A stretch of 41,454 bases of DNA, from assembly GCA_017983795.1 (NCBI GenBank), contig JAGOAS010000031.1, positions 1 to 41,454 of the forward strand, given 5' to 3'. Of this stretch, positions 1,419 through 9,520 are shown in pieces. This DNA is from Piscinibacter sp. GTDB lineage: Bacteria; Pseudomonadota; Gammaproteobacteria; Burkholderiales; Burkholderiaceae_C. The stretch's first letter is position 1. The number at the start of each line of letters is the position of its first letter. The position numbers and the translations under genes are program-made. Below the pieces are notes generated by a model. It was given only the letters and a program-made list of their open reading frames with translations. It was not told where the DNA came from and did not search any database.

Positions 1419-3845
1419 CTAGCCTCGCAGGCGCGCGCCCAGCCGCGCGCCCAGCCGCGCGATCACCTCGGCCACGGTGGCATCGATGCGTTCGTCGGTG
1501 AGGGTGTTGTCGTTGTCGAGCAGTTCCAGCCGCACCGCCAGGCTGCGCTCGCCCGGCTTCATGTCGGCGGCCGCTGTCGTCGTGCCTGCGGGTTTGTAGA
1601 TGTCGAACAGGCGCGCCGAGCGCACCAGGCCGCCCTGCCCCGCGCCGATGGCCTCCATCAGCGCCGCATGGCTGACCTCGTCGCCCGCCACCACCGCGAT
1701 GTCGCGGAATACCGACTGCTGGCGCGGCAGCGCCGCGAAGGCCGGCACGTCGCGCGCCAGCACGGCGTCGAGATCGAGCTCGAACAGCATGGGCGCCGAC
1801 GGCAGCTCGTAGCCCTGGCGCCAGCGCGGGTGCAGTTCACCGACGAAGCCGATGGCCTGCCCGTCGAGCTCGACGCGCGCGCAGCGGCCAGGGTGCAGCG
1901 CCGAGTGCTCGGCCGGCACGAAGCTGGCTTGGCGCGGCGCGAGCAGCGCCTCGATGTCGCCCTTCACGTCGAAGAAGTCGGCCGCACGCTCCTTGCTGCC
2001 CCATTGCAGCGCATCGACGCGCCCCCAGGCGAGGCCGGCCACGCAGCGCGGCTGGGCGACGCCGGCCACGCTGCGGTTGCCGTCGGCCACCGAGGCATCG
2101 CGGCGGAATACGCGCCCCGTCTCGAAGACGCGCACGCGGCTCGCCTTGCGCGCGAGGTTGCCCTGCAGCACCGCGATCAGGCTGCCCATCAGGCTGGAGC
2201 GCATCACGGCCAGCGGGCTGGCGATCGGGTTGAGCACGCGGATCGGGTCGGCATTGCCGGCCAGTTCGTGCTCCCAGCGCTCCTCGACGAAGCTGAAGCC
2301 GATGGTCTCCTGGTAGCCCAGGCCGGCCAGCGCGTGGCGCACGGCGCTCAGGCCACGATTGGCTTCGGCGCGGATGTGCGCCGTCACCGGTGCGAGCGGC
2401 GGCGTGTCGGGCAGCGCCCGGTAGCCGACGATGCGCGCGACTTCCTCGATCAGATCCTCTTCGATCTTCAGGTCGAAGCGCCACGACGGCGGCGTCACGG
2501 TGACGACGCCCGGCTCGCTCGTGAACTGCAGGCCCAGGCGCTGCATCACGCCCTCGCACTGCACCTGCGTGAGAGGCATGCCGATCACCTTGGCGGCGCG
2601 CGCGACGCGCAGCCGCACCGGCTCGGCCTTGGGCAGATCGAGGATCTGGTCGTCCATGGGGCCGGGCTCGCCGCCGCAGATGTCGAGGATCAGCTGCGTG
2701 ATGCGCTCGATGTGCGCGACGGTCAGCGCCGGATCCACGCCGCGCTCGAAGCGATGCCCCGCGTCGGTGGCGAAATTGAAGCGGCGCGAGCGGCCCGCCA
2801 CCGCCTCGGGCCACCAGAACGCAGCCTCGACGTAGACGTTGCGCGTGTCGTCCGACACCGCGGTGGATTCACCGCCCATGATGCCGGCCAGCGATTCGAC
2901 CTGCTTGTCGTCGGCGATCACGCCGACCTGCGCGTCGACCTCGATGGTGTTGCCATTGAGCAGTTCGAGCTTCTCGCCGGCGCGCCCCCAGCGCACCGTC
3001 AGGCCGCCGTGGATCTTGTCGAGGTCGAAGATGTGCGAGGGGCGGCCGTACTCGAACATCACGTAGTTCGAGATATCGACCAGCGCCGTCACCGAACGCT
3101 GGCCGCAACGCGCCAGGCGGTCGACCATCCAGGCCGGCGTCTTCGCCCGGGTGTTCACGCCGCGCACGATGCGGCCGGAGAAGCGGCCGCACAGATCGCT
3201 CGCCTCGACGCGCACCTTCAGCGTCGCGTCGTGCACCGGCTTCACCGCCGCGATGGCCGGCGTCTTCAGCGGCGCGCCCGTCAGCGCGGACACCTCGCGC
3301 GCGATGCCGTAGACACTCAGGCAATGCGCCAGGTTGGGCGTGAGCTTGAGCGTGAAGAGCGTGTCGTCGAGCTTCAGGTGCGCGCGGATGTCGGTGCCGA
3401 TGGGCGCGTCGTCGGCCAGGATCAGCAGGCCGCCGTGGTCATCGGAGAGCTTGAGCTCGCGCGCCGAGCACAGCATGCCCTGGCTCTCCACGCCGCGCAG
3501 CTTGCCGAGCTTGATGGCGAAGGGCGCAGCACCTTCCTCGGCGGGCGGCAGCGCGGCGCCGACCAGCGCGCAGGGCACGCGCAATCCCTCTCGCACGTTG
3601 GGCGCGCCGCAGACGATCTGCAGCTTGGTTCCCGTGCCGGCATCGACCTCGCAGACGTTGAGCCGGTCGGCATTCGGGTGCCGCGTCACCGACAGCACCT
3701 GCGCCACCACCACGCCGCTGAAGGGCGGCGCGGCCGGGCGCGCCTCCTCCACCTCCATGCCGGACATGGTCAGCAGATCGGCCAGCTCGGCGGTGGCGAT
3801 CGGCGGATCGCAGAACTCGCGCAGCCAGGATTCGGGAAACTGCAT
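1419..3845 (-). CDS. pheT: Phenylalanine--tRNA ligase beta subunit
   Basis: An 808-residue beta chain of the alpha2-beta2 enzyme that charges tRNA-Phe. The N terminus [13 protein letters not shown] is typical. A tRNA-binding OB domain follows at about residues 40-150 ([34 protein letters not shown]). The B3/B4 editing region contains the [14 protein letters not shown] stretch, then the B5 domain (about 405-480) and a C-terminal anticodon-binding FDX-ACB domain ending in [14 protein letters not shown]. Length agrees with proteobacterial PheT. It starts 12 bases after pheS ends, so the two subunits are made from one message. Confidence 0.97.
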
Positions 3846-3857
3846 GGAAACTCGTGC

Positions 3858-4994
<1,137 letters not shown>

Positions 4995-5351
4995 TCAAGC
5001 GAGCTGGGCCTTCACCTTCTCGACGATGCTGCCGAAGCCGGCAGGATCGTTCACGGCCATGTCGGCAAGGACCTTGCGGTCGATGTCGATGTTGGCCTTC
5101 TTCAGGCCGGCCATGAACTTGCTGTAGGTGAGTCCCAGGCCCCGGCTCGCCGCGTTGATACGGGCAATCCAGAGCTGGCGGAACACGCGCTTCTTGTTGC
5201 GGCGGTCACGGTAGGCGTATTGCCCGGCCCGCATGACCGCTTCCTTGGCGATGCGGAAGACATTCTTCCGACGGCCGCGGAAGCCCTTGGCCAGGGCCAG
5301 CACCTTCTTGTGACGAGCGCGTGCGGTGACACCACGTTTGACGCGAGGCAT
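4995..5351 (-). CDS. rplT: 50S ribosomal protein L20
   Basis: A 118-residue protein with the full L20 pattern: [51 protein letters not shown] and [15 protein letters not shown]20 binds 23S rRNA early in large-subunit assembly and, in gammaproteobacteria, represses the rpmI-rplT message. The length equals the family standard. It lies 24 bases after rpmI in the conserved infC-rpmI-rplT order. A hairpin with a T-run follows its stop codon. Confidence 0.98.
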
Positions 5352-5702: not shown

Positions 5703-6185
5703 TCACTTCCGTTTCGGCGCCAGCACCATGATCATCTGGCGCCCTTCGAGCTTGGGCATGTGCTCCACCACCGCCACGTCGGCCAGTTCGTCGCGGATGC
5801 GCTCGAGCAGCCGCATGCCGATGTCCTGGTGCGTGATCTCGCGGCCGCGGTAGCGCAGCGTGACCTTGCCCTTGTCGCCGTCCTCCGAGATGAAGCGGCG
5901 CAGGTTGCGCATCTTGATCGCGTAGTCGCCTTCGTCGGTGCCGGGACGGAACTTGACTTCCTTGATCTCGATGATCTTCTGCTTGGACTTCGCCTCCGCC
6001 GCCTTCTTCTGCTCCTGGTACTTGAACTTGCCGTAGTCCATCAGGCGGCACACCGGGGGATCCGCCTGCGCCGCGATCTCGACCAGATCGACGTCCAGTT
6101 CGCCCGCCATGCGCAGCGCTTCCTGGATGGACACGATGCCCAGCGGTTCGTTCTCGGGGCCGTTGAGACGGACTTCGGGCGCCAT
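5703..6185 (-). CDS. infC: Translation initiation factor IF-3
   Basis: IF-3 binds the 30S subunit, blocks early 50S joining and checks the start codon. From the first in-frame ATG (6185) the product is 160 residues: [52 protein letters not shown] and the C-terminal [13 protein letters not shown]. This is about 20 residues short of normal. The same frame continues upstream with [11 protein letters not shown], which matches the IF-3 N terminus, so the true start is further upstream. A well-placed ATC with an AAAGGT ribosome binding site is present at 6252, but the frame is off by one base in a run of five T (sense strand). The real 5' end is therefore uncertain. Confidence 0.95.
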
Positions 6186-6343: not shown

Positions 6344-8263
6344 TCACAGCTTGCGGGTGACGTCTGCGGCGATCTTCGTGATGAAGTCTGCCAGCGGCAT
6401 CACGCCGAGATCCTGGTTGCCCCGGGCGCGCACGGCAACGGCCCCGTTTGCCTTCTCCTTGTCGCCCACGACGAGGATGTACGGAACCTTCTGCACCGAA
6501 TGCTCGCGGATTTTATAGGTAATTTTCTCGTTCCGCAAATCCGCGGCCACTCTAAGTCCTTGTTTTTGCAGCGTTTTGGCAACCTCCGAGGCGTAATCGG
6601 CGTGTGCGTCGGTGATCGTGAGCACGCTCACCTGCCGCGGCGCCAGCCAGACGGGCAGCGCGCCGGCGTGTTGCTCGATCAGGATGCCGATAAAGCGCTC
6701 CAGGCTGCCGACGATGGCACGGTGCAGCATCACCGGGTGGCGGCGCGAGCCGTCTTCGGCCACGTATTCGGCGCCCAGAAGCTCGGCCATCGAAAAATCG
6801 ACCTGCATGGTGCCGCACTGCCACTGGCGGCCGATCGCATCCTTCAGCGTGTATTCGATCTTCGGGCCGTAGAAGGCACCGTCACCGGGTGCGATGACGA
6901 ACTCCACGCCGGAGCGGCGCAGGCTTTCCATCAGCGCGTGCTCGGCCTTGTCCCAGACCGCGTCGGCGCCGATGCGCGCCGCCGGGCGCGTGGCGACCTT
7001 GTAGAGGATGTCGCTGAAGCCGAAGTCGGCGTAGACCTTCTGCAGCAGCGCCGTGTAGGCCACGCATTCCTCGAGGATCATGTCCTCCGAGCAGAAGATG
7101 TGGCCGTCGTCCTGCGTGAAGCCACGCACGCGCATGATGCCGTGCAGGCCGCCAGTGGGCTCGTTGCGGTGGCACTGGCCGAACTCGCCGTAGCGCAGCG
7201 GCAGGTCGCGGTAGCTCTTGATGCCCTGCTTGAAGATCAGGATGTGGCCGGGGCAGTTCATCGGCTTGAGCGCGTAGTCACGCTTCTCCGATTCCGTCGT
7301 GAACATGTTCTCGCGGTACTTGTCCCAGTGGCCGGTCTTCTCCCACAGCGCCTTGTCGAGCAGCTGCGGGCCCTTGACCTCCTGGTAGCCGTTGTCGCGG
7401 TAGACGCGGCGCATGTACTGCTCCACCTCCTGCCACAGCGCCCAGCCCTTGGGGTGCCAGAACACCGTGCCGGGCGAGTGCTCGTCGAGGTGGAACAGGT
7501 CGAGTTCGCGGCCGAGCCTGCGGTGGTCGCGCTTCTCGGCCTCCTCGAGCATGGTCAGGTATTTCTGCAGGTCGTCCTTCGTCGCCCAGGCCGTGCCGTA
7601 GACGCGCTGCAGCATCTCGTTGCGATGGTCGCCGCGCCAGTAGGCGCCGGCCACCTTCATCAGCTTGAAGTGCTTGAGCTTGCCCGTGGAGGGCACGTGC
7701 GGGCCGCGGCACAGATCCTCGAACTTCCCTTCGCGGTAGAGCGATACGTCCTCGCCCTGAGGGATGCTCGAGATGATCTCGGCCTTGTAGTGCTCACCCA
7801 GGCCCTTGAAATAGGCCACCGCCTCGTCGCGCGGCAGCACGCGGCGCACCACCGGCTCGTCGCGCTTGGCCAGCTCGGCCATCTTGGCTTCGATCGCCGC
7901 CAGGTCCTCCGGCGTGAAGGGGCGCTTGTAGGAGAAGTCGTAGTAGAAGCCGTTCTCGATCACCGGGCCGATGGTCACCTGCGCGTCCGGGAACAACTCC
8001 TTCACCGCATAGGCCAGCAGGTGCGCCGTCGAGTGGCGGATCACCTCCAGGCCGTCGGCGTCCTTGTCGGTCAGGATCGCCAGCGCCGTGTCGGCCTCCA
8101 TGCGGAAGCTCGTGTCGACCACGCGCGCCGCATCCCCCTGCCCCACGCGGCCGGCGAGCGCCGCCTTGGCCAGGCCCGGGCCGATGGAGGCGGCCACCTC
8201 GGCCACCGTCACCGGGCCGGGAAACTCGCGGCGCGAACCGTCGGGCAACTGAATCGAAACCAT
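6344..8263 (-). CDS. thrS: Threonine--tRNA ligase
   Basis: A 639-residue class II synthetase, close to the 642 of E. coli. Domains in order: TGS (1-60); N2 editing domain with H77-x3-H81 in [11 protein letters not shown] and CRGPH at 185-189; catalytic core (about 245-535) with Cys337 of the zinc site in [26 protein letters not shown] and [13 protein letters not shown]; and the C-terminal anticodon-binding domain ending ADVTRKL. It charges tRNA-Thr and clears mischarged serine. It is the first large gene of the operon leading to infC, 91 bases downstream. A Thr-rich leader ORF and a terminator precede it, suggesting attenuation control. Confidence 0.98.
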
Positions 8264-8281
8264 GCTGGACTCCGGAAAAGC

Positions 8282-8308
8282 AAAAAGGCGCGGACCATGC
8301 CGCGCCTT
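8282..8308 (-). terminator. Intrinsic terminator / attenuator just upstream of thrS
   Basis: On the minus strand AAGGCGCGG (8308-8300) and CCGCGCCTT (8293-8285) form a perfect 9-bp stem with a 6-base loop. It is followed by TTTTTGCTTTT. The thrS ATG (8263) comes about 20 bases later, so the terminator lies in the thrS leader. GCGCG-rich sequence between the leader ORF stop and this stem could pair with the first arm and act as an antiterminator. Confidence 0.8.
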
Positions 8309-8354
8309 CCCTTGAACAAGTGACGAGAGACGAAGATCGACGCGCGCAGCTCCG

Positions 8355-8402
8355 CTAGACCTTCTCGGCCCAGCGCGTAGTCCGCGGTGTCATAACCGTC
8401 AT
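8355..8402 (-). CDS. Putative threonine-rich leader peptide of thrS
   Basis: A 15-codon [18 protein letters not shown] then TAG, with four threonine codons (ACG, ACA, ACT, ACG) in the first nine. It begins about 30 bases after the expected start site of the -10 element at 8444-8439, and an AGAAAGG sequence precedes it. The intrinsic terminator follows 46 bases after the stop. Promoter, short ORF rich in the cognate amino acid, terminator and synthetase gene is the layout of ribosome-mediated attenuation: stalling at Thr codons when charged tRNA-Thr is scarce would favour read-through into thrS. Translation is inferred. E. coli thrS is controlled differently, by a translational operator. Confidence 0.6.
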
Positions 8403-8438
8403 GCCTTTCTCGCTCTTGTTCGGGTGATCGAAGCCGCG

Positions 8439-8444
8439 ATTGTA
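8439..8444 (-). promoter_or_regulatory. Candidate -10 element of the thrS operon promoter
   Basis: TACAAT (minus strand, 8444-8439) differs from consensus at one position and overlaps the region just past the patatin-like gene. It would start transcription near 8432, giving a short 5' leader before the ORF at 8402. No strong -35 is seen at 16-18 bases upstream, which lies inside the upstream gene. Confidence 0.5.
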
Positions 8445-8446
8445 GT

Positions 8447-9520
8447 TCAGGCCAGCGGCTGCACCTCGATGCGGCCGGGCGACTCGAGCCAGGCTGCGAA
8501 CTCGTCGGCCAGCCGCGCGCTCTCGGCCACCGCGTGCGACCACGCCGCCATGCGCGAGCCCAGGTCGTCGCCGTAGTGCTGGAAGTCGCCGCGGTCGGGC
8601 AGCTTGGCGTTGGGCAGGGTCGCGATCCACTCCGCGCGCGGCGAGAGCACGATCACGTTGTCCAGGTGCGCGGTGGCGCGATGGCGGTGGCGCAGGGCCT
8701 TGTCCAGCCAGCCCGGGATCACGGTCTTCTGGAAATGCGGATAGAGCACCAGGCCCTCGCCCATCGAGGCGTAGTCGAGGTGCAGGTGGTAGTCGGTGAT
8801 GCCGCCGTCCCAGTACGCACCGCGCGGCGCGCCCGGGATGTCGTGCACGGCCTGCAGCCAGAACGGAATCGAGCAACTCGCCAGGATGCTGGGCTGCAGG
8901 TTGGCGGCCGTGAGCGGCACGACGTGGGTGCGGAAGTCGCGCAGGTGCAGCGGCAGCGCATCGCGCGGGTCGGAGAAGATCACCCGCTCGAGCCAGCCGC
9001 CCATGGCCTTGCGGCTCAGCGCATTGGTGGCGAAGGCGCCGAGGTAGCCCAGCGGCGTGCGCAGCCGGCCCTCGCGGCGCAGCAGGTGGCGGCCGCGGCT
9101 GGCGAATACGTGCAGCCGGTAGCGCGGGTGGCCGAGCAGTTCGGCCTCACGGCCGGCGAAACGCTCGCTGAGCTTGGCGCCGAACACCTCGCTGACGTGC
9201 GCGGCCTTGGGCGCCTTGCCGGGCTCGTGCTCGTAGCTCTGCGCGATGTAGTCGGCGGCCATCTGCGCGAAGGCCGCGTCGGCGTCGCGCGCACAGGCGC
9301 TGGCCATGCGCCACGCGCCGATCGAGGCGCCGAGCAGGTGCACGGTCTGCGCGCTGCCGGCCAGCCAGCGGCCGAAGACGAAACGGTCGAGCGGGTTGAG
9401 CACCAGCCCTTTCGGGCCGCCCGCTGCAGCGGGAATCACGCGAACGTCGGGCGGCGTCAGGCCGCGCTCGCGCAGATGCCGCAGCGCGCGTGCGCCGGCG
9501 TGGATCTGCAGGGCTTGCAT
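8447..9520 (-). CDS. Patatin-like phospholipase family protein
   Basis: A 357-residue protein with the patatin Ser-Asp dyad: an oxyanion-hole glycine stretch AAAGGPKG (32-38), the nucleophile elbow GASIG with Ser66, and the DGG motif with Asp238 (YWDGGITDYH). Patatin-like enzymes are acyl hydrolases acting on phospholipids or other acyl esters; the exact substrate cannot be told. No signal peptide is seen, so it is probably cytoplasmic. It follows tex by 30 bases at the end of a long same-strand run. The thrS promoter lies just beyond its stop. Confidence 0.85.
   Translation of the reverse strand: MQALQIHAGARALRHLRERGLTPPDVRVIPAAAGGPKGLVLNPLDRFVFGRWLAGSAQTVHLLGASIGAWRMASACARDADAAFAQMAADYIAQSYEHEPGKAPKAAHVSEVFGAKLSERFAGREAELLGHPRYRLHVFASRGRHLLRREGRLRTPLGYLGAFATNALSRKAMGGWLERVIFSDPRDALPLHLRDFRTHVVPLTAANLQPSILASCSIPFWLQAVHDIPGAPRGAYWDGGITDYHLHLDYASMGEGLVLYPHFQKTVIPGWLDKALRHRHRATAHLDNVIVLSPRAEWIATLPNAKLPDRGDFQHYGDDLGSRMAAWSHAVAESARLADEFAAWLESPGRIEVQPLA

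Follow-up and report, generated by a model that had tools for sequence, protein, structure and literature searches.

The thrL leader of the Escherichia coli thrABC operon is the classical case of ribosome-mediated attenuation, and in the Firmicutes the T-box leaders of thrS control transcription by the charging of tRNA-Thr. The operator of E. coli thrS contains a hairpin that resembles the anticodon arm of tRNA-Thr. According to the accessible part of the source, this hairpin lies in the ribosome binding site and is bound by threonyl-tRNA synthetase (ThrRS), which thereby represses its own translation (PMC3858243). Excerpts of two further papers describe the preference of the thrL leader for the major codon, with eight ACC (PMC1183508), and the leader peptide pheM, which attenuates E. 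coli pheST (PMC5371410). A ThrRS-bound operator hairpin is the textbook form of thrS control, and much of one bacterial order appears to use a different route.

The window, by which we mean the whole 41,454-nt stretch of Piscinibacter sp. DNA analysed here, carries ahead of thrS a leader that is very probably a ribosome-mediated transcription attenuator reading the charging of tRNA-Thr, as judged from sequence comparison and modelled folding. It resembles thrL in its short leader ORF with Thr codons, which is followed by an intrinsic terminator and alternative helices, but thrL precedes biosynthesis genes, whereas here the target is thrS, the Thr codons often number just 2-4, and the invariant ACA and ACT are codons that are rare in the window genes. 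Like pheM, it would attenuate an operon for an aminoacyl-tRNA synthetase through a leader peptide, although pheM uses Phe codons and serves another gene from the same kind of cluster. As with the T-box, transcription of thrS would follow tRNA-Thr charging, but sensing would here go through translation, and Rfam gives no T-box match. The E. coli thrS operator concerns the same gene and the same feedback on ThrRS supply; it differs in being translational and in using a hairpin that searches of Burkholderiales regions did not find.

The mechanism itself is already known, and its thrS member in these bacteria is apparently unreported: our literature search found no account of a threonine leader before their thrS, though an earlier mention is possible in Lopatovskaya et al. 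(2010), reportedly a comparative study of attenuation of aminoacyl-tRNA synthetases. The available parts of PMC2965389, PMC4833913, and PMC3110155 hold no description of such a leader.

The original prediction rested on a TACAAT box, a 15-codon ORF with four Thr codons in its first nine, and a 9-bp terminator with a T-run, all of which can be read on the minus strand. The features of the locus are as follows; the names of genes in the thrS cluster are those we take from their translations.

8444-8439, minus strand: -10 promoter element TACAAT, from reading the sequence; its first base lies 2 nt past the stop codon of the upstream gene
8411-8404, minus strand: Shine–Dalgarno-like GAGAAAGG, from reading the sequence
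8402-8400, minus strand: outer ATG, opening the 15-codon ORF that ends in the stop codon TAG at 8357-8355
8397-8380, minus strand: conserved core GGTTATGACACCGCGGAC, from comparison of thrS upstream regions
8393-8355, minus strand: predicted leader peptide from the inner ATG (8393-8391), 12 codons, with Thr codons ACA (2), ACT (5), and ACG (6)
8375-8367 with 8361-8353, minus strand: CGCTGGGCC paired with GGTCTAGCG around the loop GAGAA, belonging to the window's 1:2 hairpin in the minimum-energy fold
8350-8344, minus strand: region 2 segment GCTGCGC, complementary to GCGCGGC of region 3 at 8305-8299 (candidate antiterminator)
8330-8311, minus strand: pyrimidine-rich segment, whose partner in the window fold is the 5' leader with its Shine–Dalgarno region
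8308-8282, minus strand: intrinsic terminator, with arms AAGGCGCGG at 8308-8300 (region 3) and CCGCGCCTT at 8293-8285 (region 4)
8263-6344, minus strand: thrS, with its ATG at 8263, from the ORF list and sequence matches; the proposed regulated gene
5703-6185 infC, 4995-5351 rplT, 3858-4967 pheS, 1419-3845 pheT, and 1044-1406 ihfA: genes after thrS

The terminator hairpin is GC-rich, with 9 bp, a 6-nt loop, and a run of five T at 8286-8282, and the leader RNA (8283-8419) folds at -63.8 kcal/mol, a z score of -4.1 against shuffles. This fold, the recurrence of the core before thrS across the order, and its single copy in its own genome set the arrangement apart from chance. By eye, one finds no convincing -35 element upstream of TACAAT in the window; transcription would begin at about 8430-8432. 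At gathering scores, none of the Rfam 15 covariance models (T-box, Thr leader, and others) matched a leader in the window, and a weak snoRNA match (E 0.29) was all that they returned for 8230-8480.

In the proposed mechanism, RNA polymerase would start near 8431 and a ribosome would begin the 12-codon leader at 8393. With ample charged tRNA-Thr, the ribosome would finish and leave, and region 1 (coding) would pair with region 2 (post-stop); region 3, thus left free, would join region 4 in the terminator, and transcription would halt before thrS. With charged tRNA-Thr scarce, the ribosome would stall on ACA (codon 2), ACT (codon 5), or ACG (codon 6) and cover region 1, so that region 2 would hold region 3 and transcription would enter thrS. 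The cell thereby probably makes more ThrRS when charged tRNA-Thr runs low, and the downstream infC-rplT-pheST genes and ihfA may come under the control of the same leader.

Conservation was assessed in 110 thrS upstream regions, 30 from the window genome and its relatives and 80 from named contigs. The core GGTTATGACACCGCGAAC (at most 3 substitutions) is present upstream of thrS in 90 of them, a count that takes in the window itself and also L034 beside L007, and is absent from 20. The frame from the core ATG starts with MTPRT in 87 of the 90, the rest reading MRPPT (L025), VTPRT (L056), and MTLRT (L096); named carriers include Rubrivivax gelatinosus (L050), Delftia acidovorans (L068), and Acidovorax facilis (L078). 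When 399 genomes of the order were searched with the core as a pattern, 87 matched at up to 2 mismatches. Among the matches listed with at most 1 mismatch, all 46 precede thrS, by 113-280 nt and in eight families; for the 18 two-mismatch matches looked at, the number is 7, and one more (L172) is a spurious match. Across the class, the core occurs at up to 1 mismatch in 6 of 369 genomes (three from the family of the window, three single matches), the plasmids searched gave no match, and the genome of the window holds one copy even at up to 3 mismatches. A terminated leader might act mainly in trans as a small RNA, a role reported for another attenuator leader in the portion of PMC7298713 available, but with all 46 of those listed matches linked to thrS and one copy in its own genome, we consider this extremely improbable.

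Of the 146 regions that bear the motif, 145 were assigned a terminator-like hairpin, all but L172, which is not a true thrS region. The set of 141 leaders used below has the duplicates L034, L123, L124, and L128 removed and retains L065, whose assigned terminator is doubtful. A TANRAT box stands 30-85 nt before the leader ATG in 77 of these leaders (median distance 51 nt), and a GAAAGG-type sequence lies within 26 nt before it in 119.

The same comparison bears on the choice of start codon. The outer ORF (ATG ACG GTT ATG ACA CCG CGG ACT ACG CGC TGG GCC GAG AAG GTC TAG) has Thr codons at positions 2, 5, 8, and 9, and the original prediction had translation starting at its first codon, at 8402. 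This ATG stands only 1 nt after GAGAAAGG, as against 10 nt for the inner ATG at 8393, and few leaders (37/141, from 38 entries with L103 listed twice) have a further ATG in frame in the 15 nt before the conserved start; the outer ATG is kept in five regions of the window genus (L001-L005). The conserved block, moreover, opens before the inner ATG. The outer ATG is probably not the start, and comparison favours 8393, with a peptide of 12 codons and three Thr in the first six.

The leader frame closes before the terminator in 141/141 leaders, versus 45 and 42 for the other two frames, and past codon 5, Thr makes up 261 of 1222 codons in frame (21%) versus 25 and 37 of 1222 out of frame (2-3%). 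Because of this closure and enrichment, we regard the leader ORF as being under selection as a reading frame. Thr is found at codon 2 in 139 leaders, at codon 5 in all 141, and at codon 6 in 90. Conservation of the ORF and its Thr codons in relatives had been set beforehand as one of the tests on which the prediction could fall, and both Thr codon 5 and the closed frame recur in every leader. Some leaders retain just two Thr codons (MTPRTCFFLR, MTPRTFLLKR). Codon 2 is ACA and codon 5 mostly ACT (third base T in 89%), and each of these triplets occurs once among the 101 Thr codons of seven window genes. The sensitivity of an attenuator is expected to vary with the synonymous codon chosen, as stated in the part of PMC1183508 available.

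Conservation extends to the nucleotides. Across the 141 leaders, identity ranges from 87% to 100% over bases -3 to +13 around the leader ATG, and the untranslated bases -3 to -1 are 96-100% conserved (window 8380-8397 and relatives). The RNA GUUAUGAC is self-complementary when G-U pairs are permitted. Pairing does not fully account for the near invariance of GTTATGACACC, untranslated bases included, and one is left to ask why the first five codons are frozen at the nucleotide level while the remainder drifts.

Nucleotide identity of this kind, with its three untranslated bases, goes beyond what the peptide alone can explain, and might speak for direct repression, in which ThrRS binds the thrS leader RNA and the Thr codons are incidental; such self-repression is known for E. 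coli thrS (accessible part of PMC3858243). An anticodon-arm-like hairpin was sought under a modified rule (one closing mismatch also allowed, giving a 9-nt loop; 3 G-C pairs; no A in the first anticodon place). It occurs in 18 of 30 thrS leaders of other orders (L323-L352) and in none of 20 shuffles, has anticodon-like loops with CGT or GGT inside (CTCGTAT, TTGGTAG), and ends 14-24 nt before the aligned thrS start (55 in L333). It is similar to the hairpin that ThrRS binds in E. coli thrS, as far as the latter is described in the excerpt of PMC3858243. In the Burkholderiales, however, the modified rule found it in 0/133 census regions and in 0/170 of a first, partly overlapping set that includes the window, and an anticodon mimic in this leader was rejected as a candidate; a strict 7-nt loop search returned 4/30 in other orders and 1/136 in the Burkholderiales (L226, 5-bp stem). 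The Thr leader and the operator hairpin were never seen together in the sampled regions. Given this distribution, and frame closure and Thr enrichment that mark the ORF as selected for its reading frame, repression by bound ThrRS is unlikely here.

Differing Thr-rich leaders stand before a terminator in further genera, among those listed MFKRTTTTRISR, MFRTSTTTQS, MIMSFRTTTTGSTYLA, MQLNRTTTTS, MAVRTTTTHP, and MNTNTTRTTTTRHT. These bear on whether MTPRT could be a nascent-chain arrest peptide that answers a different signal, for example an antibiotic or generally defective translation. The peptide and its codons are indeed conserved far beyond the need of Thr richness, but divergent leaders drop MTPRT and retain Thr runs (MQLNRTTTTS, MFRTTTTTGK), and we judge arrest for another signal to be highly improbable beside the reading of tRNA-Thr charging.

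A census with a fixed rule found a Thr leader in 44 of 133 regions (9 of core type), versus 2-12 in ten shuffles that keep the terminator (mean 7.0). Thr-rich leaders of other types fill this position in additional families. Its base was 140 genomes, mostly one per genus, from which most motif-positive genera were deliberately omitted, so that 44/133 understates the order. These genomes gave 130 regions (five were already in the set and five had no usable region); six family regions were added, and three of the 136 were too short, leaving 133 scored. At least one of the 44 positives is a tRNA-gene artefact (MGVVGSSPIAPTTT, L248), and in many census families the fixed rule found no Thr leader. 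The same rule gave 0/30 in other orders of the class (shuffles 0-2).

Folding was examined for the predicted switch. Two partners are open to the post-stop segment, the ORF start (1:2) and the 5' arm of the terminator (2:3). The region-2 segments of these helices overlap in 128 of 145 leaders, a count made without a control. Computed on RNA reaching to region 3, upstream pairing of region 3 in the 141 leaders was 0.39 in the free RNA; a ribosome on codon 5 brought it to 0.66 and one at the stop codon to 0.57. The gain on stalling was 0.271 versus 0.055 (sd 0.017) in 8 shuffles. Compared with shuffles of the same leader, this gain is larger in 59 of 82 non-redundant leaders (p 2e-8) and in 27 of 31 divergent leaders (p 1e-7), the latter being the non-redundant members of 33 picked by eye on peptide and terminator, not on pairing, with doubtful leaders and the MTPLT and MRPPT types omitted. 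Separate duplex energies of the divergent leaders are not clear against shuffles (1:2 mean z -0.24, p 0.09; 2:3 -0.40, p 0.05).

Total pairing of region 3 is too coarse a measure, as it responds to loss of the 5' leader, and segment-wise pairs were therefore added. On stalling, pairs between region 3 and the post-stop segment rise from 2.13 to 5.13, versus 3.12 to 4.11 in shuffles (p 2e-6); the stalled 2:3 pairing exceeds shuffles in 57 of 82 leaders, and the free-state 1:2 pairing (region 1 to post-stop) in just 44 of 82 (p 2e-4 overall). Once the edge of the ribosome reaches 60-66 nt and so enters region 2, pairing of region 3 is down to 0.38-0.33. RNA begun at the ATG, with the 5' untranslated part removed, already gives 0.66, because the Shine–Dalgarno region pairs with the pre-terminator stretch (duplex mean z -0.66, p 7e-7, 81 leaders); the 5' leader contributes a large share of the switch. 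Region 3 loses little pairing when the ribosome stands at the stop codon (0.57, compared with 0.66 on stalling), and termination would therefore have to rely on release and refolding.

In the window itself, region-3 pairing is 0.42 free, 0.60 stalled, and 0.71 at the stop codon, and with 35 nt of 5' leader the free value is 0.11. The window clade has a weak switch, with L004 showing no gain, and GCTGCGC:GCGCGGC, plainer in several relatives, does not appear as the window's minimum-energy pairing in any of the states folded. For the group, the models support mutually exclusive 1:2, 2:3, and 3:4 helices above shuffles, less cleanly in the window clade; alternative pairing between leader tail and terminator arm, which the prediction called for, is modelled above shuffles across relatives. 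Comparison and folding together support threonine attenuation of thrS as first proposed, all evidence on the mechanism being computational.

One may also suppose that the terminator fixes a constant, reduced level of thrS transcription, which the leader ORF modulates without sensing threonine. Some relatives do keep a promoter-like box and a terminator-like hairpin close behind it without a leader ORF (L067, L073, L086, L089, L090, L104), such ORF-less thrS leaders being found in Limnohabitans, Polaromonas, Malikia, and Serpentinimonas. Many genera, however, show that Thr codons and alternative pairings are under selection, and a constant level seems very unlikely compared with attenuation by threonine.

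A wider reading, which we offer tentatively and with some doubt, is that the Burkholderiales swapped the thrS operator, kept in sister orders, for codon-reading attenuation with a near-invariant 17-nt sensor, GTTATGACACCGCGAAC. The rare ACA and ACT, the surroundings of the start codon, and the pairing of the Shine–Dalgarno sequence with the pre-terminator stretch would act jointly in it, and leader initiation and stalling would set termination for an operon that includes IF3, L20, PheRS, and IHF. With leader and operator hairpin not seen together in the sampled regions, the exchange of one feedback device for another becomes directly testable, and the leader would be a new threonine sensor.

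Two tRNA genes deserve mention. At all 19 loci chosen by a sequence signature, ARAGORN places a tRNA-Val (GAC) gene directly upstream of thrS (L194, L200, L206, L209, L218, L234, L237, L238, L241, L245, L254, L268, L272, L295, L299, L304, and others); the Thr leader often lies between this gene and the terminator, so that the leader RNA may arise from the tRNA transcript. In the window, a tRNA-Pro (GGG) gene lies at 445-521 on the minus strand, downstream of what are presumably ihfA and a MerR-like gene.
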